DNA of 59,798 bases from Candidatus Pacearchaeota archaeon (GTDB taxonomy: Archaea; Nanobdellota; Nanobdellia; Pacearchaeales; GW2011-AR1): NCBI GenBank assembly GCA_016188825.1, contig JACPHA010000014.1:1-59798 (forward strand), read 5' to 3'. Under the pieces are notes generated by a model. The model made no database searches, had not been told where the DNA came from, and saw nothing but the letters and a program-made list of their open reading frames with translations. The stretch's first letter is position 1, and each line of letters starts with the position of its first letter. Position numbers and translations under genes: made by a program. Below are positions 2,758-59,723 of the stretch, piece after piece.

Positions 2758-3405
2758 TTAAGATGAGGACACGCAAATAATATTTTTTAAAAATATGCTT
2801 TCTCTGTTTATGAATCTATACACATAAATAAACAAAATACTAATACCAACAGCAATAAAAATAAATCTTCCAATATATTTTGATGCGATTTCATAACTCT
2901 TTCCGAAGAAATATCCGATCATAACAAATGAAATCGCCCAACTAATACCGCCAATAATGTTGTAAGCAAGAAATTTAATGAAAGATACATCGGATGAGCC
3001 TGCCACAAAAGGAGCAAAAACCCTCGCTAAAGAATTGAACCTGCCAATAATCAAGGTTTTGCCGGTATGATGGTTCATCAATTTTTTTGTTTTCTCAAAA
3101 TGTTCTTTCTTGAAGAAAAAATATCTACCATATTTTGTGATAAATGAATGGCCATATTTTTTGCCTGATGAATATCCTATTAAATCTCCAAAAATTGCTC
3201 CCAATGCCGCAATAAAAATAGTATCACCGATATCTAAAATTCCAAGTTTGACAAAAAAGCCGCTAACAATAACAATAAGCTGACCTGGAATCAATAAGCC
3301 AAAAAGAGGAGATGCCCCTAACATTGCAGCAAGTAAAATAATCCAATATCCCCAGTGATGCAAAACCGTGGAGGGTAAACTCAATATTTTATCAACAATC
3401 AACAT
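2758..3405 (-). CDS. DedA/SNARE-associated family membrane protein
   Basis: The protein has several transmembrane helices and typical DedA-family features: the segment around LIPGQLIVIVSGFF, the conserved GDLIGYSSGKKYG, and GRFNSLARVFAPFVAGSS with its conserved Arg residues. Family members are linked to lipid scrambling and membrane homeostasis. The ATG at 3405 (MLIVDKIL) is taken as the native start. The frame also stays open upstream to a TTG at 3507, but those 34 codons are almost entirely a 91-bp inserted repeat. The insertion separates the start codon from its TATA box at about 3521-3529, so expression may be altered. The next gene (PAP2) follows at once and may be co-transcribed. Confidence 0.85.
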   Translation of the reverse strand: MLIVDKILSLPSTVLHHWGYWIILLAAMLGASPLFGLLIPGQLIVIVSGFFVKLGILDIGDTIFIAALGAIFGDLIGYSSGKKYGHSFITKYGRYFFFKKEHFEKTKKLMNHHTGKTLIIGRFNSLARVFAPFVAGSSDVSFIKFLAYNIIGGISWAISFVMIGYFFGKSYEIASKYIGRFIFIAVGISILFIYVYRFINRESIFLKNIICVSSS

Positions 3406-3499
3406 ATGGACAATTGCATTACTTATGTGACATTTATTTGCAATTGTACAGACAGAGAATTGCAAAAAACATGAGACATATCCTATGCAATTCTCTGTA
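3405..3499. mobile_element. MITE-like element, family 1, copy a
   Basis: A 91-bp core (3407-3497) is flanked by TA on both sides and is identical to the core at 5789-5879. The two ends are imperfect terminal inverted repeats sharing the run AATTGCAT and then TATGT, with about 18 of the first 26 positions matching. Internally it can fold into two hairpins (ACAATTGCA with its complement, and ACAGAGAATTGCA with its complement). It carries no gene. The TA duplication points to mobilisation by an IS630/Tc1-mariner-like transposase (inference). This copy inserted at the A of the DedA start codon. Confidence 0.85.
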
Positions 3500-3663
3500 A
3501 TAAACAAAAAATAAACTAATATATATAAATCTGTTTAAAAAAGGAGTTTATAAGCGGCGACAAAGACAAAAATTAGCAACTTTTAAATAGCCCTCTTTTT
3601 TGTTTATTGTATTAAGATATAGTGTATAGGAATAGTGGTCTTATGACCTGTCTATTTCTAAAA

Positions 3664-3673
3664 AATATAAATT
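3664..3673 (+). promoter_or_regulatory. TATA box of DEAD-box helicase gene
   Basis: AATATAAATT is centred about 22 nt before the ATG at 3690, with no Shine-Dalgarno between. This is the spacing of a leaderless archaeal promoter. A hairpin-rich stretch (3609-3664) lies just upstream. Confidence 0.5.
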
Positions 3674-3689
3674 AAACCAAATTTACAAA

Positions 3690-5123
3690 ATGGAAAAATT
3701 CAAGCAATTGGGATTAGGCAGTGAAACACTGCGCACAATACAAGAACTGAAATTCACCGAACCTAGTGAAATCCAGGAAAAAACAATTCCGATAATTTTA
3801 ACTGGGAAAGATGTAATAGGAAAATCAGCCACGGGCTCAGGAAAAACAATAGCTTTTATTTCAAGCATTTTAGAAAAAACAAAAAAGGGCAAGGGTATTC
3901 AAGCACTTGTTCTGACGCCAACACGAGAACTTACACAACAGGTTTCTGGTGTTTTAAAAAAATTTGCCAAAAAAAAGGAGTTGCATGTTACAGAAGTTTA
4001 CGGTGGTGTTTCAATCAATAACCAAATAAGGGAAATAGAAAGATCAGAAATAATTGTAGGCACCCCGGGGAGAATCCTGGATCATCTTGGAAGAAGAACT
4101 CTTGACTTATCAAAAATTACTGTTCTTGTTCTTGACGAAGCAGATAGAATGGTTGACATGGGTTTTCTTAAAGATGTGGAAAATATAATAAAACAAACTC
4201 CCAGAGAAAAACAAACTTTATTATTTTGTGCAACAACATCAGCAGACATAGAGTACATAGAAAAAAGATACATGCACGACCCAAAATATGTAGTAGTTGA
4301 TTCTTATGTAGATTCAGGAAAACTTGAACAATTTTACTATGATGTCCCTTCAAATTTAAAATTCTCCCTCCTTGCTCATCTTCTGAAAAATGATTCATCG
4401 CGCCTTGTCATGATATTCTGTAACACAAGGCAAAACGTTGACATGCTCACAAAGAATCTAAGGCGTTTTGATTTACAAATCTCAGCAATTCATGGAGGCA
4501 TGACACAAAATCACAGAAATAGGATTATACAGGATTTTCATTCCGGTAGAATCAGGATTTTAGTATGCAGCGACGTTGCCGCCCGCGGTCTTGACATAAA
4601 AGACGTTTCACATATTTACAATTATGACATTCCAAAAACCAGCACAGAATATATTCACAGAATAGGTCGAACAGCAAGAGCAGGGAAAGAAGGGCAGGCA
4701 ATAAGCCTTGTTTCGCAAAGAGACCATGAAAATTTCCGCAGAGTTAAATTAGATGATTCTTTGGAAATAAAATCAATGCCTCTTCCCGAGTTCCCTCAAT
4801 TGCAAGCCCGTTTTGATTTCCATGAAAAAAGGCAGGGAAACTTCCGAGATAGAAAACCCCATTACGGCAGCAGAAGCGAAGGAGGTCCTTCTCATGGTTT
4901 CAAAAAGAAATCTTTTGGAGGGGGGCCGTTCAGAGGAAGGAGTAATTTTAACAGACCAAGAAGAGAGGGTTTTCATGGAAGCTCTTACGGAAATAGGCCA
5001 AACAAGTTCGGAGGCAGGTTTCAACAACGCAATAACAGAGACAGAGGGTATGGAGGAGGAAACAGGAATAGTCGAGGCAGAGGCGGTGGAAGTTTTCAGA
5101 AAAGAAAATTCAGAAGATTTTAG
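3690..5123 (+). CDS. DEAD-box RNA helicase with RG-rich tail
   Basis: ATP-dependent RNA helicase, 477 residues. Motifs in order: Q-motif region (FTEPSEIQEKTIP), I SATGSGKT (46-53), Ia PTREL, Ib TPGR, II DEAD (in VLDEADRMVDMGF), III CAT in place of the usual SAT, IV FCNTR, V ARGLD, VI HRIGRTARAG. After about residue 375 the protein becomes a basic, Gly/Arg/Phe-rich tail with many RG, GGG and FRG units, a common RNA-binding tail in CsdA/DbpA-like and archaeal helicases. A role in ribosome assembly or RNA unfolding is family knowledge; the RNA target is not shown. It has its own TATA box. A GGGAA/TTCCC hairpin lies at 5140-5155. Confidence 0.95.
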   Translation: MEKFKQLGLGSETLRTIQELKFTEPSEIQEKTIPIILTGKDVIGKSATGSGKTIAFISSILEKTKKGKGIQALVLTPTRELTQQVSGVLKKFAKKKELHVTEVYGGVSINNQIREIERSEIIVGTPGRILDHLGRRTLDLSKITVLVLDEADRMVDMGFLKDVENIIKQTPREKQTLLFCATTSADIEYIEKRYMHDPKYVVVDSYVDSGKLEQFYYDVPSNLKFSLLAHLLKNDSSRLVMIFCNTRQNVDMLTKNLRRFDLQISAIHGGMTQNHRNRIIQDFHSGRIRILVCSDVAARGLDIKDVSHIYNYDIPKTSTEYIHRIGRTARAGKEGQAISLVSQRDHENFRRVKLDDSLEIKSMPLPEFPQLQARFDFHEKRQGNFRDRKPHYGSRSEGGPSHGFKKKSFGGGPFRGRSNFNRPRREGFHGSSYGNRPNKFGGRFQQRNNRDRGYGGGNRNSRGRGGGSFQKRKFRRF

Positions 5124-5221
5124 TAAATTATAAATTTAGGGAATTTTTGTTCCCATAAAGTATTTCTGACTGTGAAGATTGAGAGTTAGATTCCAGAAAG
5201 TTAAATAATTAAAACGAAGAT

Positions 5222-5551
5222 TTATATACAATAATCAAGTCTTTCTTTCTCTACGGATTCTTCCCCCATTCTTTTGTGGTATTTTCTTAAAGCCACTTGA
5301 GTTTTGTTATATTCTCTTACAAGTCGATTAGCGTCCATCCTATCTCTAAAAGCCATAATGCTATCACTATCTCTGTGACTTCTTGCTAACTTTAATGCCT
5401 GTTCTGCATCAAGTCTGTCCCTAAAATCCACAATGCTCATAAATAATTGGAAAGACTGGTCTTTTAAAACCTTTCTTTTTTTGAAAAAATCCCATTCTAA
5501 AAACACTATGTGGGAACTTTTATTCTCAGTTTTTATAAAGATGTTAGACAT
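5222..5551 (-). CDS. hypothetical protein with duplicated FRDR(L/M)DA motif
   Basis: About 109 residues from the ATG at 5551; the frame is open further up to a TTG at 5575. No known family is recognised. It is basic and helical, and it contains the motif FRDR(L/M)DA twice, about 22 residues apart (FRDRLDAEQA and FRDRMDANRL), suggesting an internal duplication. The start lies 13 nt after the stop of the decayed NYN gene, so the two probably formed one operon, and this may have been a partner or antidote of that nuclease (inference only). Confidence 0.5.
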   Translation of the reverse strand: MSNIFIKTENKSSHIVFLEWDFFKKRKVLKDQSFQLFMSIVDFRDRLDAEQALKLARSHRDSDSIMAFRDRMDANRLVREYNKTQVALRKYHKRMGEESVEKERLDYCI

Positions 5552-5564
5552 TTTGTCCTCTATC

Positions 5565-6218
5565 TTAAAATTCAAAGAAATCTTTTTTGATTAATATTCT
5601 CTCATCACAAACATTCCATAAATGATTTGATAAGGAAAAAGCCGATTTTCTTTTTCTATCGGTGAAATATGCTAAAATAACTTTAACACCAAAATCTTTT
5701 CTTATTTCTTGGATAATTGGAACGAAATCAGTATCTTAAGTTAATATTATCAAATTTCTAATCTCTTTCTTTTGCGAAATTTTAAGTATGGACAATTGCA
5801 TTACTTATGTGACATTTATTTGCAATTGTACAGACAGAGAATTGCAAAAAACATGAGACATATCCTATGCAATTCTCTGTAAATCCATTGTAAGCAAAGT
5901 ATCAACTCCTTTCTGTTGAAATCCATCCTCACTTTTCTGAACTCTTCCTTCTCTAATATTTATTTTTGGTTTTACTTCTTTAAGTTTGAGAATAAACTTA
6001 TCATAATTTCCACGTCTTTTGTTTTCTTCAATAGTTGGCGTTGGGCTTTGATATGGCGGAGCAGTATAAAAATAAATTTCCTCAACTTCCAAATTCTTAA
6101 CTTTAGCGATATTTTGAGCAAACTTTTCTATTTTGTTTCTTAATGGCCTGCCCTTTCCAAAATACTTTGAAATAAAGGACAAATAACCCCCGTCTATAAA
6201 GAATACTGCTTTTTCCAT
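5565..6218 (-). pseudogene. NYN/LabA-like PIN-family nuclease, interrupted by a MITE and a nonsense codon
   Basis: The N-terminal part (ATG at 6218) reads VFFIDGGYL, with the acidic residue of NYN domains, and continues to KGVDTLLTMDL, where the 91-bp repeat begins and adds a TAG. Removing the repeat and one TA (93 bp) rejoins MDL to LKISQKKEIRN in frame. The rest continues as FVPIIQEIRKDFGVKVI and KSAFSLSNHLW to a stop at 5565. The restored gene would be 187 codons. One further in-frame TAA (5736-5738) stands where the family has the Gly of TGDTDF. So the gene is inactivated twice. The family comprises metal-dependent RNases of the PIN-like fold. Confidence 0.85.
5787..5881. mobile_element. 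MITE-like element, family 1, copy b
   Basis: The 91-bp core (5789-5879) is base-for-base identical to the copy at 3407-3497 and has TA on both sides. It sits inside the NYN gene. Excision with one TA restores the host frame exactly, which defines both the element ends and the 2-bp target duplication. The identity of the two copies suggests recent movement. Confidence 0.9.
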
Positions 6219-8212: not shown

Positions 8213-8308
8213 TATAGAGGACTTTGAATAACCTCTATTTTTCTGATTTTTTCAAAGTCCTTCTTAGAGAGTTTTGAAGATTTTTAGGGTTTGTCAAAAC
8301 TCTCTATA
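8213..8308. mobile_element. MITE-like element, family 2, copy a
   Basis: An 88-bp core (8217-8304) starts GAGGACTTTGAATAACC and ends, read from the other strand, GAGAGTTTTGACAAACC. It is flanked by TATA on both sides (8213-8216 and 8305-8308). Inside are two perfect long inverted repeats, GGACTTTGAA with TTCAAAGTCC and AGAGAGTTTTGA with TCAAAACTCTCT. It has no coding capacity. A related copy with the same ends and a 4-bp duplication is at 14135-14306. Confidence 0.7.
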
Positions 8309-8642: not shown

Positions 8643-9224
8643 ATGCAAAAAAAATCTAGAAATGAAAACATCTGGAACATGCCGAACACTTTAACATTAA
8701 CAAGAATTTTATTGACTTTCATTATCCTTTATTTTATTTTTTTGGATTATTCAATTATATTAATAGTAATTCTGTTCTCAATAGGAATGTTTACAGATTT
8801 TCTCGACGGTTTAATAGCAAGGAAGTTCAACCAAAAAACAGAATTTGGAAGAAAATTCGACATGATTGCAGACAGGTTTTTCATGATTTCAGTCGCTCTG
8901 GCGATTATAATTAATTTGAGTTTAGACAAAATTCTTCAAAAGCCGCACTTTATTCAGATACTTATGATAATGTCCAGAGAAATTATTGCTTTGCCAGGAC
9001 TAATTCTTGCGTTCATGACGGGAAAAGGAATTCCTCAAGTTCGTTGGGTTGGAAAATCAACAACTCTTATGCAAGCAATAGTATTCCCGCTTATAATGTT
9101 AAGTGTATTTTATCCTTTCTTTGAATTTTCAATTTATTTAGTATTGATTACTTCAATTCTTGGAATTTCATCAGGAATTTTTTACATCAACGACATATTA
9201 AAAATGGAGGCAGAAAAAAAATAA
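8643..9224 (+). CDS. CDP-alcohol phosphatidyltransferase
   Basis: An integral membrane enzyme that transfers a phosphate-linked diradylglycerol from a CDP-lipid to an alcohol, as in archaeal phospholipid synthesis. The full signature D-x2-D-G-x2-A-R-x8-G-x3-D-x3-D is present: D52, D55, G56, A59, R60, G69, D73, D77. About five to six transmembrane helices follow. At 193 residues it is the size of PgsA-like and archaetidylglycerol- or archaetidylinositol-phosphate synthases; which acceptor alcohol is used cannot be decided. The stop is followed within 1 nt by the next gene's ATG. Confidence 0.85.
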   Translation: MQKKSRNENIWNMPNTLTLTRILLTFIILYFIFLDYSIILIVILFSIGMFTDFLDGLIARKFNQKTEFGRKFDMIADRFFMISVALAIIINLSLDKILQKPHFIQILMIMSREIIALPGLILAFMTGKGIPQVRWVGKSTTLMQAIVFPLIMLSVFYPFFEFSIYLVLITSILGISSGIFYINDILKMEAEKK

Positions 9225-9506: not shown

Positions 9507-9525
9507 CTTGAAGTTATTAAAAAAT

Positions 9526-9855
9526 ATGGTAGAAACCGTATTAGAAAGAAGCAGATTTAAAATAGATATGTCGGGTAAAGTTGAGGACACAGGCTGGGCT
9601 TATGAAGTTATCCCAGAAAACGAACTAAAAGGAGAAAAATTTATTGTAGTTAGACACAATGACAATTATAGCCTAATGGAAGTTGAGTGGGGGCAGGCCC
9701 CGTCGTTTGAAGCCTTAGTCAAAGATCCTGTTGTTGCCGATCGACTGCTACGCATCCAGATAGTTAAATTTGTTAGAGAAAGATATAATGAAGACATCAG
9801 CGATTTCTTAAAATCAAAGGGGGAGGAGGAATATGCAAAACATAAGATACGATAG
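9526..9855 (+). CDS. hypothetical protein, about 109 residues
   Basis: No known family is recognised. From the ATG at 9526 the protein starts MVETVLERSRFKIDM and contains WAYEVIPENELKGEKFIVVR and LMEVEWGQAPSFEAL, suggesting an alpha/beta domain. The C-terminus overlaps the next gene by 23 nt, so the two are translationally coupled and may form a two-component unit. Confidence 0.6.
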   Translation: MVETVLERSRFKIDMSGKVEDTGWAYEVIPENELKGEKFIVVRHNDNYSLMEVEWGQAPSFEALVKDPVVADRLLRIQIVKFVRERYNEDISDFLKSKGEEEYAKHKIR

Positions 9856-10228
9856 ATTAATCGGCTTAGATTTTTCAGATATTCGCAGAAAAATAGATGC
9901 AGAAGAAAAAGCAAGGCAAGAAGAAGCCATAGCAAGAGCAATAAAAACACACCAAATACTATTTTCTGAAGGAATTGATACTTCCAGCCTTTTTTCTATT
10001 CAAGAAGTAGAGCTTTTAGATTATTTAGGTTCACCATGTGAATTAAGGATATATCCAAGCGGATTTGCCAATGATATGATTAAGCAACTTGATAGGTTCT
10101 CTCATCATGATATATCAGAAATTATGTTGGCAAGAGATAAAATAGGAAAAGCAATATTCGATAAACTAGGTAAAAGAGTAATATCAATGGCAGAAAATCC
10201 CAGAAGAGATTTGGATTATTTTAATTGA
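9833..10228 (+). CDS. hypothetical protein, 131 residues
   Basis: A strong purine-rich Shine-Dalgarno (GGAGGAGG, just before 9833) lies inside the end of the upstream gene, supporting this start. The N-terminal third is a charged helix rich in E, K, R and A (DIRRKIDAEEKARQEEAIAR), probably a coiled coil; the rest is mixed alpha/beta. No family is recognised. Overlap with the gene before it suggests a joint function. Confidence 0.6.
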   Translation: MQNIRYDRLIGLDFSDIRRKIDAEEKARQEEAIARAIKTHQILFSEGIDTSSLFSIQEVELLDYLGSPCELRIYPSGFANDMIKQLDRFSHHDISEIMLARDKIGKAIFDKLGKRVISMAENPRRDLDYFN

Positions 10229-10335
10229 AAAGTATTATCTAACAATTAATAAATGCCGAATTTAATACAAATGTTTCTGCATATCTAAATATATAGCTAA
10301 AGACATTAGTAATTTTCTGTTTTGGCTTTGGCTAC

Positions 10336-10385
10336 ATTGAGGGAAAGCCATAGAAAAAATGGCAGAAAATTTATGGCTTCCACTA
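10336..10385 (-). repeat. REP-like hairpin, family 3, copy A
   Basis: Read on the minus strand: TAGTG, then a stem with arms 10372-10380 and 10344-10352 around an 19-nt loop, then CCCTCAAT. The same flanks enclose different but self-complementary stems at 13866-13914 and 14723-14769. It lies between a coding region and tRNA-Ser. Confidence 0.6.
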
Positions 10386-10442
10386 TACATTGTAGTATCA
10401 ACAAACAACAACCTTTAAAACTATTTAAATCTCTAAATCTAA

Positions 10443-11250: not shown

Positions 11251-11300
11251 CAAAGTTCTTTGAACTTTGAAGAGTCCCAAAAACACACAAGGACTTTTTT
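11251..11300 (+). terminator. dispersed terminator-like hairpin, copy T1
   Basis: Two tandem hairpins: CAAAGTTC/GAACTTTG (11251-11269), then AGTCC/GGACT (11273-11295) with the loop holding AAACACACAA, followed by six T. It is downstream of the zinc-ribbon gene. The second hairpin shares its stem and loop with copies at 32664, 40624 and 59663. Confidence 0.6.
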
Positions 11301-11359
11301 ACATTAAGTTTTTTAATCTCAAAAAATAATAAAAACTTAGGCCAAGCAAGAAAATAACA

Positions 11360-13734: not shown

Positions 13735-13865
13735 TTTTTTTGGTAATTGATTCATAGAAGCACCGTTTAAATACAAATTATAAACCAAAATTAAATTACA
13801 AGTATTGTTCTAATATTAATTAATTCTAAAAACTATTTATACATAATTATCTTGCTATTAAAATA

Positions 13866-13914
13866 TAGTGAAAGACGTAAGTTTTTTACCAAATTTGCAC
13901 GTCTTTCCCTCAAT
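13866..13914 (+). repeat. REP-like hairpin, family 3, copy B
   Basis: TAGTG (13866-13870), stem AAAGACGT (13871-13878) with ACGTCTTT (13899-13906), then CCCTCAAT. A second weaker inverted repeat, ATAGTCAA with TTGACTAT, follows at 13913-13957. It is 130 nt downstream of the GH15-like gene. Confidence 0.65.
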
Positions 13915-13995
13915 AGTCAATGACAAAACGAGGAATTATTAATGTCCTTGACTATAGTTCTACAAAGAACTTGATTCCGATTTCCGTAAATTATG

Positions 13996-32663: not shown

Positions 32664-32724
32664 CAAGAATTTAATTTTCAGAATTCTTGGTGTCCAAAAG
32701 TCCAAACACACACAAGGACTTTTT
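32664..32724 (-). terminator. dispersed terminator-like double hairpin, copy T2
   Basis: CAAGAATT/AATTCTTG and AAAAGTCC/GGACTTTT form two stems; the second loop holds AAACACACACAA. It lies directly after the stop of the P-type ATPase gene. The 61-bp sequence recurs at 59663-59723 with one mismatch, in the same orientation relative to the gene it follows. Confidence 0.65.
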
Positions 32725-32727
32725 TAT

Positions 32728-35484
32728 TTAAGAACCAATTAACCTCGCTCTTCTCCTTCTCCTAAAAATCTTGTAAATCTCAACTGTTGGAATAATAGAA
32801 AAAGAAATTAAAAATAATGCAAACAGCTCAAAATAAGAGAGATATCCGAATTCAAAAACATTCTGCAGAAAGGGAATGTAAATAACAACAAGCAGAAGAA
32901 AAGTTGAAACTAAAAAAGCCCACGTTACATATTTGTTGCCAAAAAATCCAACTTTGAACAAAGATTCCCTCAAAGACCTCATGTTAACCATGTTAAAAAT
33001 CTGTGTAAATGAAATAACAGCGAAAGCTGCAGTCCTTGCTTTTGTTTCATCAATCTTCAAATAGAAATTAAAAACAGCAATTGTTAAAATCATCATAACC
33101 AAAGTCATTAAAATAATAGGAGGCAAAACATCTTTATTCAAAATATTCTCGTCTTTTTTTCTCGGTTTTTCTTTCAGACGGTATTCGTGAACTTGCTCGG
33201 TTGATAAGGCCAAATCTGTTACGCCTCCGCCAACTATGTTAAGCCACAGTATTTGTGCAGGCAGCAAAGGCAGGGGAAGATTCAAAAGCATTGTTGCAAT
33301 AATTGTAGCATGCTCTGCAAAGCCAGTTGTGACTAAAAAAAAAGAAGTTCTGCGCGTGTTAATAAACACCGTTCTTCCCTCTTCAATTGCATTAATAATA
33401 CTTGCAAAATTATCATCTGCTAAGACTATTTCGCTGGATTCTCTTGCAACATCAGTTCCTATCTTACCCATTGCAATTCCTATATCTGCCTGTTTCAGAG
33501 CCGGAGCGTCATTAACTCCATCTCCAGTCATTGCAACAACATGCCCTTCCCTTTGCAAAATCTTGGCAATTTTCAGTTTCATTACAGGATCCAGTCGCGC
33601 AAAAACAGAAACATTTTTTACAGCCTTTTCAAAATCTCTTTCATTCATTTCTGCCAGCTCCGCGCCCGTTAATGCCACCAGCTTTTCATTCTCGTGCTCT
33701 TGTTTAATCAATCCTATTTCTTTTGCAATTGCCACCGCAGTATTTTTGTGGTCTCCGGTTGCCATTATCACTCTTATTCCAGCTTCAGTCGCCCTACCAA
33801 TTGCTTCCTTAACTTCTTCCCTCGGCGGATCACTCATTCCTACCAAGCCAGTAAAAATCAGCTCAAAAGTATCTTTCTCGTGCAGTTCATTCATGCCAGA
33901 ATGAGTCTCTTTATAAGCAACTCCTAAAACCCTCATCGCTTTCCTCGTTAAGTTATCTATTTTTCTTTCAATTTCAATCGCATCTTTTTTTGTCAATCTT
34001 GTTTTTCTTCCGTTTTTTAATATAAACCTTGAATGTTTTATTGCTGATTCAGGCGCGCCGACAACATAAATCTCTCTCTCGCCGTTTTTTTCTGTCAAAA
34101 CAGATAGCGATGCGCGGTATTTTAATTGCGGATTAAAAGGCATTTCATCAATTCTTTTTTCTTTTTCTAAAATTGCCTCTTTCTTGATTCCTGCTTTTTC
34201 AGCTGCAACAATCATTGCGGCTTCTGTCGGCTCCCCGAAAATTTCATATTCTGTTTCATGATTTTCTTTTCTTATCAGTCTGGAATTATTGCAGAAAGAA
34301 ATAATATGCAGAAATTTATTCAAATGCTTATTTTCCAAAGGAACAATTTGCTTTTTGTCCTGGTAAAATTCTCCCTTTGGTTCGTATCCTGCTCCCGTAA
34401 CATAAATCTCGCTCTGCCCCGGGAGGGCTATTTCTTGAACAGTTATTTTATTTTTTGTCAATGTTCCGGTTTTGTCAGTAATGATAACATCAACAACAGC
34501 AAGTGTTTCAGTAGAATATCTGTTTCTTATTATTGCGTTTCTCTTTGCCATTCTATAAGCTCCGATAGCAAGCACAATTGCCAAAATGGAAGGCAGGCCT
34601 TCTGGAATTCCAGCAACCAAAGAAGCAATAGTAAAAATAAAAACATCCTTCAATAACATTTTTCTTATAAAATATCCCACAATAAAAATAATCAGCGCGC
34701 CGACAACAGCAAGAAAAGCCATCTGTTTCGCCATTACGTCAATCCTTGCTTGGAAATGGCTTTTTCTCTGCTCAATGTTTTCTATAGTAGTTGCGAGTTT
34801 TCCAATTATTGTGTTGTCGCCGCCTGCAGTAACTATTGCCCTTCCATGACCCGCAGCAGCAAAAGTCCCAAGCCAAATCATATTCTTTTGGTCTATGAAA
34901 GAAGTTTTTTCCGGTAGCGGCTTTATTATTTTATCAACTGCATAAGGTTCCCCAGTTAAAGAAGACTCAACAGTCCTAAAATTATTTATTTCAATAAGTC
35001 TTGCATCAGCAGGAATCCTATCTCCTTCTTCAACTAATATCATATCTCCAGGAACAATGTATTTAGCAGGAATCTGCACAAGTTCTCCATCACGATAAAC
35101 CTTGGCCCGCTGGACTATCATTTCCTTCAACGCCCTAATTGCCTTTTCAGCCTTTGACTCTTGAAAATATCCTACAACAGCATTTACAGCAACAACACCA
35201 ATTATGACATAAACATCAATCATTCTCTCAAAAAAGAAAGAAATTGCCGCAGCAATTGCTAAAATATAAACCATAAAGCTTTTGAACTGCTTCAAAAAAA
35301 TTATTATTTGGGAAGACTCTTTCTTCTCTGAAATTTCATTAAGCCCGTATTTTACTATTCTCGCGTTCGCTTCTCCCTTGCTCAATCCTTCAATTTTGCT
35401 GTTGAGCTCCTGCAAAACTTCATGAACCGTCTTAGCATGGAATTTATTTTTGGCAAGATTTTTATCTTCTTTTATTATATTCAT
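32728..35484 (-). CDS. P-type cation-transporting ATPase, calcium-type (P2A-like)
   Basis: 918 residues with about ten transmembrane helices. In order: N-terminal cation-ATPase domain (VLQELNSKIEGLSKGEANAR), actuator motif LTGEP, the M4 ion site AGIPEGLPSILA, phosphorylation site DKTGTLTKN, the nucleotide-binding domain, and the hinge GDGVNDAPALKQADIGIAMG. PEGLP in M4 is typical of Ca2+ and related P2A pumps. It pumps cations across the membrane by a phospho-Asp cycle; the exact ion is inferred. It is a single-gene unit ending in a repeated terminator hairpin. Confidence 0.9.
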   Translation of the reverse strand: MNIIKEDKNLAKNKFHAKTVHEVLQELNSKIEGLSKGEANARIVKYGLNEISEKKESSQIIIFLKQFKSFMVYILAIAAAISFFFERMIDVYVIIGVVAVNAVVGYFQESKAEKAIRALKEMIVQRAKVYRDGELVQIPAKYIVPGDMILVEEGDRIPADARLIEINNFRTVESSLTGEPYAVDKIIKPLPEKTSFIDQKNMIWLGTFAAAGHGRAIVTAGGDNTIIGKLATTIENIEQRKSHFQARIDVMAKQMAFLAVVGALIIFIVGYFIRKMLLKDVFIFTIASLVAGIPEGLPSILAIVLAIGAYRMAKRNAIIRNRYSTETLAVVDVIITDKTGTLTKNKITVQEIALPGQSEIYVTGAGYEPKGEFYQDKKQIVPLENKHLNKFLHIISFCNNSRLIRKENHETEYEIFGEPTEAAMIVAAEKAGIKKEAILEKEKRIDEMPFNPQLKYRASLSVLTEKNGEREIYVVGAPESAIKHSRFILKNGRKTRLTKKDAIEIERKIDNLTRKAMRVLGVAYKETHSGMNELHEKDTFELIFTGLVGMSDPPREEVKEAIGRATEAGIRVIMATGDHKNTAVAIAKEIGLIKQEHENEKLVALTGAELAEMNERDFEKAVKNVSVFARLDPVMKLKIAKILQREGHVVAMTGDGVNDAPALKQADIGIAMGKIGTDVARESSEIVLADDNFASIINAIEEGRTVFINTRRTSFFLVTTGFAEHATIIATMLLNLPLPLLPAQILWLNIVGGGVTDLALSTEQVHEYRLKEKPRKKDENILNKDVLPPIILMTLVMMILTIAVFNFYLKIDETKARTAAFAVISFTQIFNMVNMRSLRESLFKVGFFGNKYVTWAFLVSTFLLLVVIYIPFLQNVFEFGYLSYFELFALFLISFSIIPTVEIYKIFRRRRRARLIGS

Positions 35485-40264: not shown

Positions 40265-40609
40265 ATGGCAAAAGGAAAAAGTGGGAATAAACTTGGAAGT
40301 TGGGCCTTCTTAATCGGTGTAATCCTTGCAGTCTTGTTCGGGATATTTGGAGGCCTGTCTGACAACCCTCAAATAGCGTGGCTGGTTTTAGTTATCGGTA
40401 TAGTTGTCGGCCTGATGAATGTTGCAGATGAAGAAGTTGAACCATTCCTAATGGCTGGGACAGTGCTTGTCATTGTTTCCGTATTGGGCCAGAATGCGCT
40501 GGGAGCAGTTCCATTCTTTGTGAACATCTTGCAGGCGTTGTCAGTCTTGTTCGTGCCCGCTACAATAATCGTAGCATTGAAGCATGTATTTGCAATAGCC
40601 AAAAATTAA
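40265..40609 (+). CDS. hypothetical membrane protein, 114 residues
   Basis: The ATG at 40265 is fixed by AGGAGG just upstream. After a basic N-terminus the protein has three or four hydrophobic segments with small-residue patterns (WAFLIGVILAVLFGIFGGL, WLVLVIGIVVGLMNV). A strong promoter and ribosome-binding site and higher GC than its surroundings suggest high expression. No function is known. A bidirectional hairpin terminator follows. Confidence 0.75.
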   Translation: MAKGKSGNKLGSWAFLIGVILAVLFGIFGGLSDNPQIAWLVLVIGIVVGLMNVADEEVEPFLMAGTVLVIVSVLGQNALGAVPFFVNILQALSVLFVPATIIVALKHVFAIAKN

Positions 40610-40623
40610 AAATTTTTTATGTC

Positions 40624-40653
40624 AAAAAGTCCAAACACACACAAGGACTTTTT
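40624..40653. terminator. dispersed terminator-like hairpin, copy T3
   Basis: AAAAAGTCC (40624-40632) pairs with GGACTTTTT (40645-40653) over the loop AAACACACACAA. It lies between two convergent genes and has T- and A-runs on both sides, so it could stop transcription from either direction. Confidence 0.65.
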
Positions 40654-40675
40654 GATTTTAATTTTTTTCTTAATT

Positions 40676-41077
40676 TTATTTTTTTAAATCAATAACCTTA
40701 AATCCAAATTTTTCATATATCTTATCGGAACTAATTATTTCACTTTTTTCAGAGAAAGCTAATTCGCTTTCATAGGCAAAAGCCATAAGCAAGGAATCAA
40801 AAATGCTTGCTCCCTGTTCGATGTATTCAACCGCTTTAAAGAATAAATCCCACTTAATAAATGTTAATCCGGCAATTCTTGATATCTGAAACAAAGTTTT
40901 CTTAAGAGGTATACTCTCTCTAACACAGACCACCATTAATTCAACAACTGTAAACGGAGAAACGTAAATAGAATTCTTATTATGCTCATATACTTTTCTT
41001 GCTTTTTCTTTAAGCCAATCAGAATCCTTTAATAAAGCTAAGAAAAAATCAGAATCTGCGTATTTTTTTGAGGGCAT
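40676..41077 (-). CDS. vapC: PIN-domain toxin, VapC family
   Basis: 133 residues. PIN-fold RNase with conserved acidic residues: Asp8 or Asp10 in KYADSDFFLALL, the Glu in TVVELMVV, Asp in SIFDSLLMAFAYES, and SSDK near the C-terminus. VapC toxins cleave tRNA or rRNA. The gene overlaps the upstream antitoxin gene by 29 nt, as in typical toxin-antitoxin pairs. Confidence 0.85.
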   Translation of the reverse strand: MPSKKYADSDFFLALLKDSDWLKEKARKVYEHNKNSIYVSPFTVVELMVVCVRESIPLKKTLFQISRIAGLTFIKWDLFFKAVEYIEQGASIFDSLLMAFAYESELAFSEKSEIISSDKIYEKFGFKVIDLKK

Positions 41078-52300: not shown

Positions 52301-54040
52301 ATGAAAAAAGGGGAAAATATCGTGAATTCTGGTAATTGGGATAAATTTTTATCCAGAATTTCCGTGGCAGATAATTCTCCGAAAACTACTCCAATTAAAA
52401 GAATTATCCATAATAACTTTAAATTAGTCGCAATGCTATTTTTAATAATTGCTTTTTCTGTTTTATTATCAGTTAATTCTCCTGCCGAAGAACCTTCTGT
52501 TTTGTCAAATTTCCCCAATTACTCTCCAGAATTTAATAACATCACAAAAGAATTTTTTATTTGTGAAAATTCAGCTTTTTCTTATAACTTATCTGCCTCA
52601 GATATAAACAAAGAAGATTCTTTATATGCTGATATCTCTCCAAAAAACCCCTTATTCTTAAAAATATTAAAAGAAACTCCAGCATTTTTAACAGCAGAAA
52701 TTTTCTCCGGCAAAATAAATAAAGACGAGGCGGGAAAAAATTATCAAGTTACTGTTTCTGTGTCAGACGGAAAATCCATTGCAGCAGAAAAGCTCAATAT
52801 AAACACAATAGAAATAAACAATCCTCCGCAATTAGAAAACATTGGAGCCCAAACAATTTCTTTTGACAGAACAAAAAATTTTAATAAAGAAATAATTGCA
52901 AATGACACAGAACATGATTTTTCCGGCGAGGGAAAATTAAATTTTTCATTATCTTTTCTTTCAGGCAGAGAAATTTTCAATATCAATCAATTTGGAAAAA
53001 TAAATTTCACAGCAAATCAATCTCATCTTGGAAAATATAAAATAAAGCTCTGCGTTTCAGATTCTGGAATAAAAAATGTCCATGAAAAAATTTCTCTTTG
53101 TAATTCTGATGGCTCTGCCAAATCAAACTGCACAGAGTTTGAATTAGCAATAATAGAAAAAAACAAAGCTCCGACAATTCTCTCTGCTTTCCCGCTGCAA
53201 AGGAATTTTAACATATCAGGAAACGAAACTTTATTTTTCAACATTTCAAAATTCGATCCAGAAGGAATAATTCCTGACAGTTATTGGTATGTCGATGATG
53301 TACTAAAAAAATATGACAAAGGGTATATAGAAGAAGGCTTTAATTTTTTATTTACATGCGATACATCTGGAAAACACAAAATAAAAGTCGAAATTACAGA
53401 CGGTTTGTTAAGCGATTCAATCACTTGGGAATTTAATGTAAAAAAAGTTTCTTGTCTTCCTGAAGATTATTTTATCTGCAGCCCGGTTTGGTCTTGCCTT
53501 GACTGGAATCTCTGCCAGAATGCAATGCAGTCAAATAAAGTAGGAATTTTGTCAAATTTAGATTACGATAAAATAAAACAAAACTGCCAGAATAATTCAT
53601 GGAGCGACGAAACATGCGGTTTTCAAATCCGCTCTTGCTCTGATATTAAAGAATGCACCCAGATTTTTAGCTATAAAAGGCCTACAGAAATTCAGGAATG
53701 TTATTTCTCTTTAAATCCAAGTTGTTCAGATAATGTAAAAAATTGTCATTCTGGTAGCTGTGAAACTCTTCCAGATTGTGGAGGTCCCTGCGAGCCATGC
53801 CCAACCTGCACCGACGGAATAAAAAACCAAGGCGAAGAAAGAATTGACTGCGGCCTTCCTTGCGCCAAGCAATGTCCATTGCTTCCTCCGGCATTCTACG
53901 AAAAAGAAAACATAAAAAAGGCAATAGTTATTTTAGTAATAATTCTTATTCCAATTCTAATAATCAAAATCTGGCATGTTGTGAAAATGAGAAAAATTAT
54001 TTTTTCAAATCTAATTAAATCAAAGGAGATAAAAAGTTAA
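52301..54040 (+). CDS. surface protein with cadherin-like repeats and Cys-rich module
   Basis: 579 residues. An N-terminal membrane segment (about 45-65) follows a cytoplasmic stretch of 40 residues. Two to three Ig/cadherin-like domains follow, seen by repeats of the type NNPPQLENIGAQ and VTVSVSDGKS. A Cys-rich region (about 410-540) ends in CTDGIKNQGEERIDCGLPC, the DGI.N..E...DCGGPC module shared with archaeal surface proteins. A C-terminal transmembrane helix and basic tail anchor it. Several NxS/T sites suggest glycosylation. Likely a cell-surface adhesin or envelope component. Confidence 0.75.
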   Translation: MKKGENIVNSGNWDKFLSRISVADNSPKTTPIKRIIHNNFKLVAMLFLIIAFSVLLSVNSPAEEPSVLSNFPNYSPEFNNITKEFFICENSAFSYNLSASDINKEDSLYADISPKNPLFLKILKETPAFLTAEIFSGKINKDEAGKNYQVTVSVSDGKSIAAEKLNINTIEINNPPQLENIGAQTISFDRTKNFNKEIIANDTEHDFSGEGKLNFSLSFLSGREIFNINQFGKINFTANQSHLGKYKIKLCVSDSGIKNVHEKISLCNSDGSAKSNCTEFELAIIEKNKAPTILSAFPLQRNFNISGNETLFFNISKFDPEGIIPDSYWYVDDVLKKYDKGYIEEGFNFLFTCDTSGKHKIKVEITDGLLSDSITWEFNVKKVSCLPEDYFICSPVWSCLDWNLCQNAMQSNKVGILSNLDYDKIKQNCQNNSWSDETCGFQIRSCSDIKECTQIFSYKRPTEIQECYFSLNPSCSDNVKNCHSGSCETLPDCGGPCEPCPTCTDGIKNQGEERIDCGLPCAKQCPLLPPAFYEKENIKKAIVILVIILIPILIIKIWHVVKMRKIIFSNLIKSKEIKS

Positions 54041-58400: not shown

Positions 58401-59640
58401 ATCGGGCTATGGCAATGGCTCTGCATTCTTGTGGAACTTCACAGCTAATTTCACAGATGAAACAACATGCACTGGAGCAATAAATTTGACGTTAAATGTT
58501 TCAAATCAAAAATTATCAAATTCAACAACATGGAATTTAACAATAAATCACACAAATTACAATTTGACTTTCACAGGCTCAATCGGCGGCTCTGAACAAA
58601 AAGTTACAGGAGGCTCTTCGGCAACAGTAACTTTGTCAACTTATTTTATTGATATTGATGCCTCTGACTTTTGCAGAAATCAAACAATCGGTTTTATTTA
58701 TACATTTCTTACCGGCGACTCCCAAACAGTTTCTATTACAAACTGGACGAATTATAATGTAACTCCAGAAGTTACCTTTTCTTCCTCTTCAACCACAAAA
58801 GCAAATTATTCAATAACTGCTTTTGAATATAACAGCTCAAATTATAGCACACCAATTTTAGGAAATGCAACAAGCAATAACTTCACAGTTGAACTAACAG
58901 TAACAACAGTCTCAACTCCAGCACCATCTTCCGGCGGCGGCTCTTCTAGAGAAAGGCCAATCTCATTAAAAATAATAGTTCCAGAGCCAGTTTCTGCCAA
59001 AAAGAAAGACAAACTAATTGTTCCTATAAGACTGGTCAACGATGGGGAAGTTGACCTTAACGAAATAGTTTTAAGCAGCTTAGTAGCCAAGAGCGGATTG
59101 ATCAGAAGTGATTTGATTGCTTCTTTTGACAAAACATTTTTCAGGCAATTAAGAGCCGGACAAAGCGAAAACGTAACAATGATTGTGGATTTAGACACAA
59201 CCGAAACAGGAATATTTGAAGTCACTATAAACGGAACTGTAAAAAATCCGAAATATAGTGACTGGAGCAAATTCTATATAGAAATTAAAGAAGAAGAAAC
59301 CGTTATCGAAAAAATAATTTTCACAGAGGAGCTTATTATTGGAAATCCTGTTTGCGCCGAGCTTAAAGATTTGATTGAAGAAGCAAAGGAATTATATTCT
59401 CAAGGCAGAATAGAAGAAAGCAGGAGAAAAGCAGACGAGGTTTTGGAAGCATGCAGGCAGGCAATAGAGCAGCCGCCAAGCCCAAGAGTATTTGAAAGAA
59501 TAGCAGACAATTTTGTTACTTATCTGGTTATTGCTATAGTTAGCGCAATTACCATTGGTTTTGGCTATTATTACTATAAGCGTTGGAGAATGAAGAGAGC
59601 ACTATCAGGACTTGCAGATATTAACAAGCCGGAAGAATAA
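55474..59640 (+). CDS. giant cadherin/Ig-like repeat surface glycoprotein
   Basis: About 1388 residues from the ATG at 55474. A signal segment (IAIVTLFIIFNISPTFATSS) is followed by at least eight Ig/cadherin-like repeats, marked by recurring VNDAPVF, TDEENN and VGNYTINFTVTD-type segments. The protein is extraordinarily rich in Asn, Thr and Ser, with very many N-x-S/T sequons, predicting dense N-glycosylation. A Ser/Gly linker (APSSGGGSSRE) leads to a conserved APHP-like domain, then a helical stretch and a C-terminal transmembrane anchor with a basic tail. It is a candidate S-layer or adhesion protein. Confidence 0.8.
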   Translation: MEKEAKIIFVNIMYLSIAIVTLFIIFNISPTFATSSGSNGTANLTIWTGGTSNGNNRTFGTIFSKTTADWNFLFYANYTNSSNFVINQSNGNGACQIRFNQTGTYDSLVNMSYNSSSLLWQYNVTFNYKGNLSSNVNCNSTFGNISLVDYFTVRNTRPLIAKDEASGEMTTLSCTEDILCTFNITTNVTEDDFNDRSSLTFAIISANTTLTNYTLTSIGFLTVNKTNMNTSSSEKISFTVTDGGSDSGTDVATLPVSTTAVNDAPVFVNLANQSFNMSTLFEYIINVTDEENNIPFTFNITFLNCTVASWSSRNCSNSGSNGRDLFNSSQYTTNGTSGQINISFKPTRNDVGNYTINFTVTDSGTTNPANATTSKIINFEVLNINSLPYFRYVCDNERNTTENSLFNCYINITDLDETLNVTMTANYTWFKFNDTGTNSTQVPINSTTNFNGSAIVNFTATDTEVGNWSVNVSLTDRGNPIGRNSTVFYFFIANVNDSVSLDAINNLTAYTSNNYTIYVNATDDDLLIPDKNVLNETLTFTSNHTNVTINSTTYISGTNKTQAAIFINPNLLPQGNTTVNITVQDKYNFSISSRIFRIEVLTNNPPVWNATLQTNHSLIEDTNFYLNLSQNVSDPDVGDIINFTFSNDTAFPSFTINATTGVINFTPVDGDVGRHIVIINASDGKTPSPKTFNLTVNNTLDAPILDSPRINSVINGSTDGSTHVNATEDNKTTINIFIFDNDFLIPQKTFCSTCNEQLTVNVTIQGPNTTLLTFSQEAGWPVGNKTLFALTFTPMQADVGSYNITLNFTDVSNLSVVLSFNLTVFLNQDPPNMTRISDIVTSIIEILYIDVNTTDEEDINETVPGSNLTYTITNLTANGNFLTINRTTGVINLTLNQTHAGNWSFNVSVNDSSGKMDSDTFVLTVYDYPKILSPNSTTQFNFKENVSMELNFTVNHTVGDNLNYTLIILGALRNSTSGYGNGSAFLWNFTANFTDETTCTGAINLTLNVSNQKLSNSTTWNLTINHTNYNLTFTGSIGGSEQKVTGGSSATVTLSTYFIDIDASDFCRNQTIGFIYTFLTGDSQTVSITNWTNYNVTPEVTFSSSSTTKANYSITAFEYNSSNYSTPILGNATSNNFTVELTVTTVSTPAPSSGGGSSRERPISLKIIVPEPVSAKKKDKLIVPIRLVNDGEVDLNEIVLSSLVAKSGLIRSDLIASFDKTFFRQLRAGQSENVTMIVDLDTTETGIFEVTINGTVKNPKYSDWSKFYIEIKEEETVIEKIIFTEELIIGNPVCAELKDLIEEAKELYSQGRIEESRRKADEVLEACRQAIEQPPSPRVFERIADNFVTYLVIAIVSAITIGFGYYYYKRWRMKRALSGLADINKPEE

Positions 59641-59662
59641 TCTGGAGTGCAACAATAATATC

Positions 59663-59723
59663 AAAAAGTCCTTGTGTGTGTTTGGACTTTTGGACACCAA
59701 GAATTCTGACAATTAAATTCTTG
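59663..59723 (+). terminator. dispersed terminator-like double hairpin, copy T4
   Basis: AAAAGTCC (59664-59671) pairs with GGACTTTT (59684-59691), loop TTGTGTGTGTTT, followed by AATTCTTG-type second stem. It starts 23 nt after the stop of the giant surface protein. The remaining bases to 59798 show no gene. Confidence 0.65.

Follow-up and report, generated by a model that had tools for sequence, protein, structure and literature searches.

Twin-hairpin repeats flanked by TA duplications in a Pacearchaeota genome, probably mobilised by IS630-family transposases

The repeat unit of pneumococcus (RUP) is a non-coding, intergenic repeat of about 107 bp with a TA target and terminal inverted repeats (TIRs) that match those of an IS630-family element, and its movement by IS630-Spn1 has been proposed (PMC2229807). 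The Correia/NEMIS repeats of Neisseria are also TA-flanked MITEs, of about 107 or 155 bp and with TIRs of about 24 bp (PMC2229807). In the passages of PMC2229807 that deal with the CIR repeats of Caulobacter and Brucella (citing Chen and Shapiro 2003), these alphaproteobacterial repeats of about 110 bp have a terminal TA, fall into several sequence groups and have two arms, each formed from its own inverted repeat; the same passages describe a linker and GANTC sites and report no TIR, partner transposon or target duplication. REP/REPIN doublets with RAYT are likewise paired palindromes in inverted arrangement (PMC2817692). The archaea named in a 2024 review of MITEs in prokaryotes are Sulfolobus, Halobacterium and Haloquadratum, besides a few others (PMC10969869).

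The stretch of DNA analysed here (the window, 59,798 nucleotides) is contig C3 of a 20-contig, 1.01-Mb draft genome (82.8% complete) of a Candidatus Pacearchaeota archaeon. It contains two copies of a repeat, which we call family 1, whose mobilisation appears to resemble that of RUP. RUP is listed with elements that form their stem-loop by pairing of the 5' and 3' ends (PMC2229807), whereas the archaeal element forms two separate, adjacent hairpins; it also differs from RUP in sequence and in domain of life. The bacterial Correia/NEMIS repeats differ in having an end-to-end stem and, in the 155-bp form, an IHF site (PMC2229807). The resemblance to CIR is one of shape; the host is an archaeon, and we claim no homology. 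The SM1–SM4 elements of Sulfolobus, which belongs to a distant archaeal phylum, are similar by description, being archaeal MITEs present in tens of copies (PMC10969869). In a search of openly accessible literature, we found no publication that describes elements of this kind from Pacearchaeota.

The two window copies and their insertion sites

Positions 3405-3499 and 5787-5881 of the window are 100% identical and consist of TA, a 91-bp core and TA; one extra A 3' of each copy is likewise identical. The original prediction had placed two identical TA-flanked cores at 3407-3497 and 5789-5879, which is exact to the base, and had described their termini as imperfect inverted repeats, which we read as TATGGACAATTGCA / TACAGAGAATTGCA. 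The outer ~28 bp of both ends are homologous. The features of the two copies, with the evidence in brackets, are:

3405..3406, no strand: left TA of copy 1, whose T is common to the start codon of the neighbouring gene
3407..3497, plus strand: copy 1, 91-bp core of the probable twin-hairpin MITE (BLAST, covariance model)
3407..3450, plus strand: copy 1, hairpin 1, with the left TIR as its outer arm (fold z -5.8, covariation)
3452..3498, plus strand: copy 1, hairpin 2, with the right TIR as its outer arm (fold, covariation)
3498..3499, no strand: right TA of copy 1 (sequence)
5565..5786, minus strand: 3' fragment of the NYN gene split by copy 2, containing an additional in-frame stop
5787..5788, no strand: left-hand TA of copy 2, duplicated target (sequence, orthologue alignment)
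5789..5879, plus strand: copy 2, 91-bp core inside the NYN gene (sequence, orthologue alignment)
5880..5881, no strand: right-hand TA of copy 2, duplicated target (sequence, orthologue alignment)
5882..6218, minus strand: 5' fragment of the NYN-domain gene split by copy 2 (orthologue alignment, PF01936 in an orthologue)

Copy 2 breaks the NYN gene. Joining position 5786 to 5882 by a single TA gives TLLTMDLLKISQKKEIRN, which aligned to eleven NYN orthologues from other genera with no gap at the junction (62-72% identity in the N-terminal part), as anticipated from the proposal that removal of the copy with one TA restores an in-frame join; one intact orthologue was confirmed as PF01936. As the gene also contains an in-frame stop (ILT*DTDFVP) besides copy 2, we regard it as decayed. 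Copy 1 lies where a VTT-domain (DedA-like) gene (PF09335) starts; the ATG of this gene (3405-3403 on the minus strand) is preserved by the duplicated TA.

The element is short (95 bp) and non-coding. The core was searched against the genome for other copies, as had been suggested, and BLAST found at least 13 full-length copies at 95-100% identity, besides truncated and diverged ones, which is far above chance expectation. Copy numbers from the genome searches are lower bounds; the genomes are draft MAGs, and contig ends often hold repeats. Only four of 41 element copies lay within an ORF (restored where interrupted) of at least 100 aa, compared with 75% of random TA sites, and the scarcity of copies in ORFs (37 of the 41 were outside) is consistent with purging from genes.

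Empty sites were found within the genome as well as in the NYN orthologues, in agreement with the proposal of a MITE-like element that duplicates TA. A region of about 300 bp is present three times (C11:3.9k, C11:24.8k and C19:95k). The copies at C11:3934 and C11:24760 are at different TAs of this region, each locus providing the empty site of the other, and in the C19 member both sites are empty, with a single TA each. An empty relative of the copy at C12:27244 lies at about 40.1 kb of the window (TAGCATT-TA-TATACG on the minus strand), and a second, less exactly matching one is in L087. TA is present at the start and end of 105 of the 110 hits of the covariance model, but the model itself contains the TA, and the empty sites are therefore the stronger proof of duplication. 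The flanks of the 110 hits showed no strong conservation beyond the TA. Both window sequences very likely represent a non-autonomous DNA transposon that was copied to these sites recently.

Two further observations concern these sites. The triplicated region (C11 ~3.9k and ~24.8k, C19 ~95k) is possibly itself a repeat element. The family-1 copies at C12:27244 (L093) and C8:91089 (L095) of the window's genome (G000) occupy the same target, ATTAGCATT-TA..TA-TATACGATAAAATAACTG, in opposite orientation; this arrangement arose through recurrent insertion into one TA or through inversion in situ.

IS630 elements with matching ends

DDE_3 (IS630) is rare in the archaeal family to which the window's genome belongs (9 of 181 genomes), and it was found in six of the 21 element-bearing genomes and in three of the 160 others (Fisher p 8e-5). 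We built an end matrix from MITE ends alone and scored it on TA windows. Complete IS630 elements were delimited in two genomes (G106:C7, 1119 bp; G106:C3, 1103 bp; G081:C37, 1095 bp), and in each of these loci the two top-scoring TA windows were the inward-pointing ends of the IS. A fourth IS630 with matching ends, in G079, is split over two contigs. Of the eight IS ends (G106 x2, G081, G079), six scored higher than any of the 47,027 background windows (p 2e-5), and the remaining two gave p 4e-5 and 2e-4. The transposases of these partner elements are 321-338 aa long, have DDE_3 and HTH domains with a D-D-E spacing of 36 residues (counted in one), and match the NCBIfam IS630 equivalog at 215-234 bits (cutoff 100). 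Other IS630 loci (G169, G018, G176, G021) had no paired family-1-like ends by the matrix.

The carriers of the partner IS630 belong to other genera of the same family as the window's genome, and the partner ends GATAACTGC are closer to the MITEs of G106, G108 and G081 than to family 1 GACAATTGCA. Neither DDE_3 nor the profile of the partner transposase had a match in the window's own assembly (82.8% complete). The expectation of IS630-type mobilisation was thus upheld by IS630 elements with matching ends in three related genomes; the partner exists as predicted, in related genera; it had been expected elsewhere in the same genome, and the assembly of that genome does not contain it. Just four genomes had strong matches to the partner transposase, and three of these carry the element (p 0.005); many element-bearing genomes therefore have no visible partner.

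Family 1 very probably consists of MITEs of fixed-length, twin-hairpin form that are mobilised by an IS630 transposase. The common ends suggest cross-mobilisation in trans: an IS630-family DDE transposase encoded elsewhere would recognise the ~28-bp TIRs (matrix consensus TATGGAGAACTGCGTTGATTATGTCACA) and insert the element at TA, which would be duplicated. The donor in the window's genome would have been lost or would lie in the unassembled part. The reach of RUP-like IS630 cross-mobilisation would thereby include DPANN archaea with small genomes, for which we have identified the likely parent IS.

A second set of repeats, group H, also forms two hairpins, within 91-96 bp, and has ends (TATAGTCNAGGACATTAATAATT) unlike those of family 1. 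With a matrix of group H ends, both ends of an IS630 in G158 were the top two TA windows (24.1 and 19.8, the next being 2.4), and one site was found beside a DDE_3 fragment in G108; the family-1 IS loci contained no sites. The G158 element is different from the family-1 IS630. As it matches group H, twin-hairpin MITEs of equal size seem to accompany each of two types of IS630. Groups D, E and F have no matching IS630 so far. In L089 (contig C1 of the window's genome), terminal repeats of group H stand 529 bp apart (9509-10037), possibly as a larger or composite element.

Twin-hairpin architecture and the role of the inner arms

Because an inner arm lies beside each TIR, the element folds within ~95 bp as two adjacent hairpins: each half is its own inverted repeat, and a single strand forms two independent stem-loops (z -5.8), as in CIR. 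We aligned 16 sequences from five genomes and found that 91% of 387 pair cells were standard and that two-sided changes numbered 44, compared with 13.5 +/- 2.8 after shuffling and no more than 8 for slid controls. In a set of 94 different elements, outer arms paired with the inner arms of their own hairpin at 9.9 of 11 positions, compared with 7.3-7.9 for arms crossed between both hairpins and 6.9 for arms paired with another element. Pairing within the hairpin exceeded crossed pairing in all 94, which indicates that the four arms are more than repeats of a single binding site and that self-complementarity is maintained by each hairpin separately. Stem mismatches read on the top strand of these elements were G-T in 42 cases and A-C in 41, with no sign of a constraint on one-strand RNA or single-stranded DNA; the equality points to DNA rather than one-strand RNA.

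Within close groups, stem positions had changed in 46 of 1668 cases (2.8%) and other positions in 112 of 2063 (5.4%), counts that are inflated by relatedness and not fully independent because copies within a group share ancestry. Changes confined to the inner arm (16) were about as frequent as those confined to the outer arm (14), indicating that the inner arms are about as constrained as the TIR arms, and seven changes were compensated. These counts bear on whether the hairpins are kept by mutation and not by selection. Template switching at quasi-palindromes, which perfects imperfect inverted repeats, predicts strand-symmetric compensatory changes, as we observed. However, with 30 one-arm changes and seven compensated ones in close copies, correction of the arms is not fast, and the near-constant length across diverged groups (94-96 bp in 99 of the 110 collected hits) is left unexplained. 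We consider template switching an unlikely source of the hairpins.

The IS ends lack inner arms and have no two-hairpin fold. The puzzle is that mini-elements with different ends share the same size and have inner hairpin arms that are missing from the parent transposon. As the inner arms are absent from IS630 ends yet conserved, they probably assist the mini-element at the DNA level. They might act as extra inward-facing transposase sites; or, hypothetically, local hairpins might compete with one long 95-bp palindrome that would be open to attack by host nucleases. We raise as a tentative possibility that twin-hairpin MITEs are a distinct, selected class, which would have arisen in parallel in at least two IS630 lineages (family 1 and group H) from parent ends without inner arms, and in which the hairpins would be needed for mobility or survival as DNA. 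Since ends, inner arms and partner transposase are known at base resolution, direct tests of what the hairpins do are possible.

An element made of two hairpins could instead be the substrate of a Y1 (HUH) transposase of the IS200/IS605 or RAYT type, recognising single-stranded hairpins as for REPINs and PATEs, and Y1_Tnp genes are common, with five matches in the window's genome. This is very improbable. REP/REPIN sequences are moved by Y1 transposases in a process of which TA duplication is no part (PMC2817692), and PATEs and REPINs insert without target duplication, whereas here TA is duplicated, as seen from the empty sites, and the flanks have no further strong target conservation; G-T mismatches should outnumber A-C ones under a single-strand mechanism, and the two occur at equal frequency; and Y1_Tnp is only weakly associated with the element (13 of 21 element-bearing genomes compared with 61 of 160 others, p 0.03). 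That the repeats are conserved structured RNAs or regulatory units and not primarily transposons would accord with their stable paired structure, strong covariation and location mostly outside long ORFs, but it is scarcely credible in view of the precise TA duplications, the gene disruption, the ends common to IS630 elements, the lack of a G-T excess on the element strand and the absence of any Rfam match.

Distribution and sequence groups

We built a covariance model (R1) from the 16-sequence alignment. It matched 21 of the 181 genomes of the archaeal family, in 15 of 87 genera, including G009 (of the window's genus) and G108, both within the same GTDB family; at a stricter E-value it had no match in 19 further genomes of the same order outside the family. 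A pattern search found matches in two archaeal MAGs among genome contigs and none among viral contigs. A match in a Fusicatenibacter MAG (L146) was rejected because on inspection it was not a twin hairpin.

In 340 kb of the window's genome, R1 matched at least 41 places, and about 40 model hits per 340 kb is a sizeable repeat load. The elements of this genome form at least six sequence groups, of which A to F differ strongly in their stems, and a related group with other stems (TATGGAGAATTCGG...) occurs on C18, C4 and C8. The window contains four more elements:

8215..8308, minus strand: twin-hairpin element of group F, 94 bp (40.3 bits; fold z -5.7)
10292..10387, plus strand: twin-hairpin element of group H, 96 bp (located via TIRs)
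13864..13956, minus strand: twin-hairpin element of group H, 93 bp (fold z -5.9)
52318..52412, plus strand: decayed 95-bp twin-hairpin element of group E (35.1 bits; fold weak at z -1.7)

These four, the other sequence groups, the twin-hairpin architecture and the extra NYN stop had no part in the original prediction. In L094 (9813-9985), a group B element is nested in a group E element, and the latter is therefore the older at this site. At many contig ends of G169 (e.g., L049 1-145), the 95-bp element lies within a longer repeated unit, TTAGCGGAAGAACAAAAAACTG...TTTTGTCTTCTGCTA, which was apparently amplified as one piece in many places. A lone family-1-like end, TATAGACAATTCCCTTAAATAAGTCC, lies beside short tandem repeats in L096 (contig C14 of the window's genome) at 9152. 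The window also contains a separate repeat family (11277-11314, 32664-32739, 40606-40683 and 59633-59723, in both orientations) with the hairpin AAAAGTCC...ACACACAAGGACTTTTT, which is probably another mobile or structured repeat.
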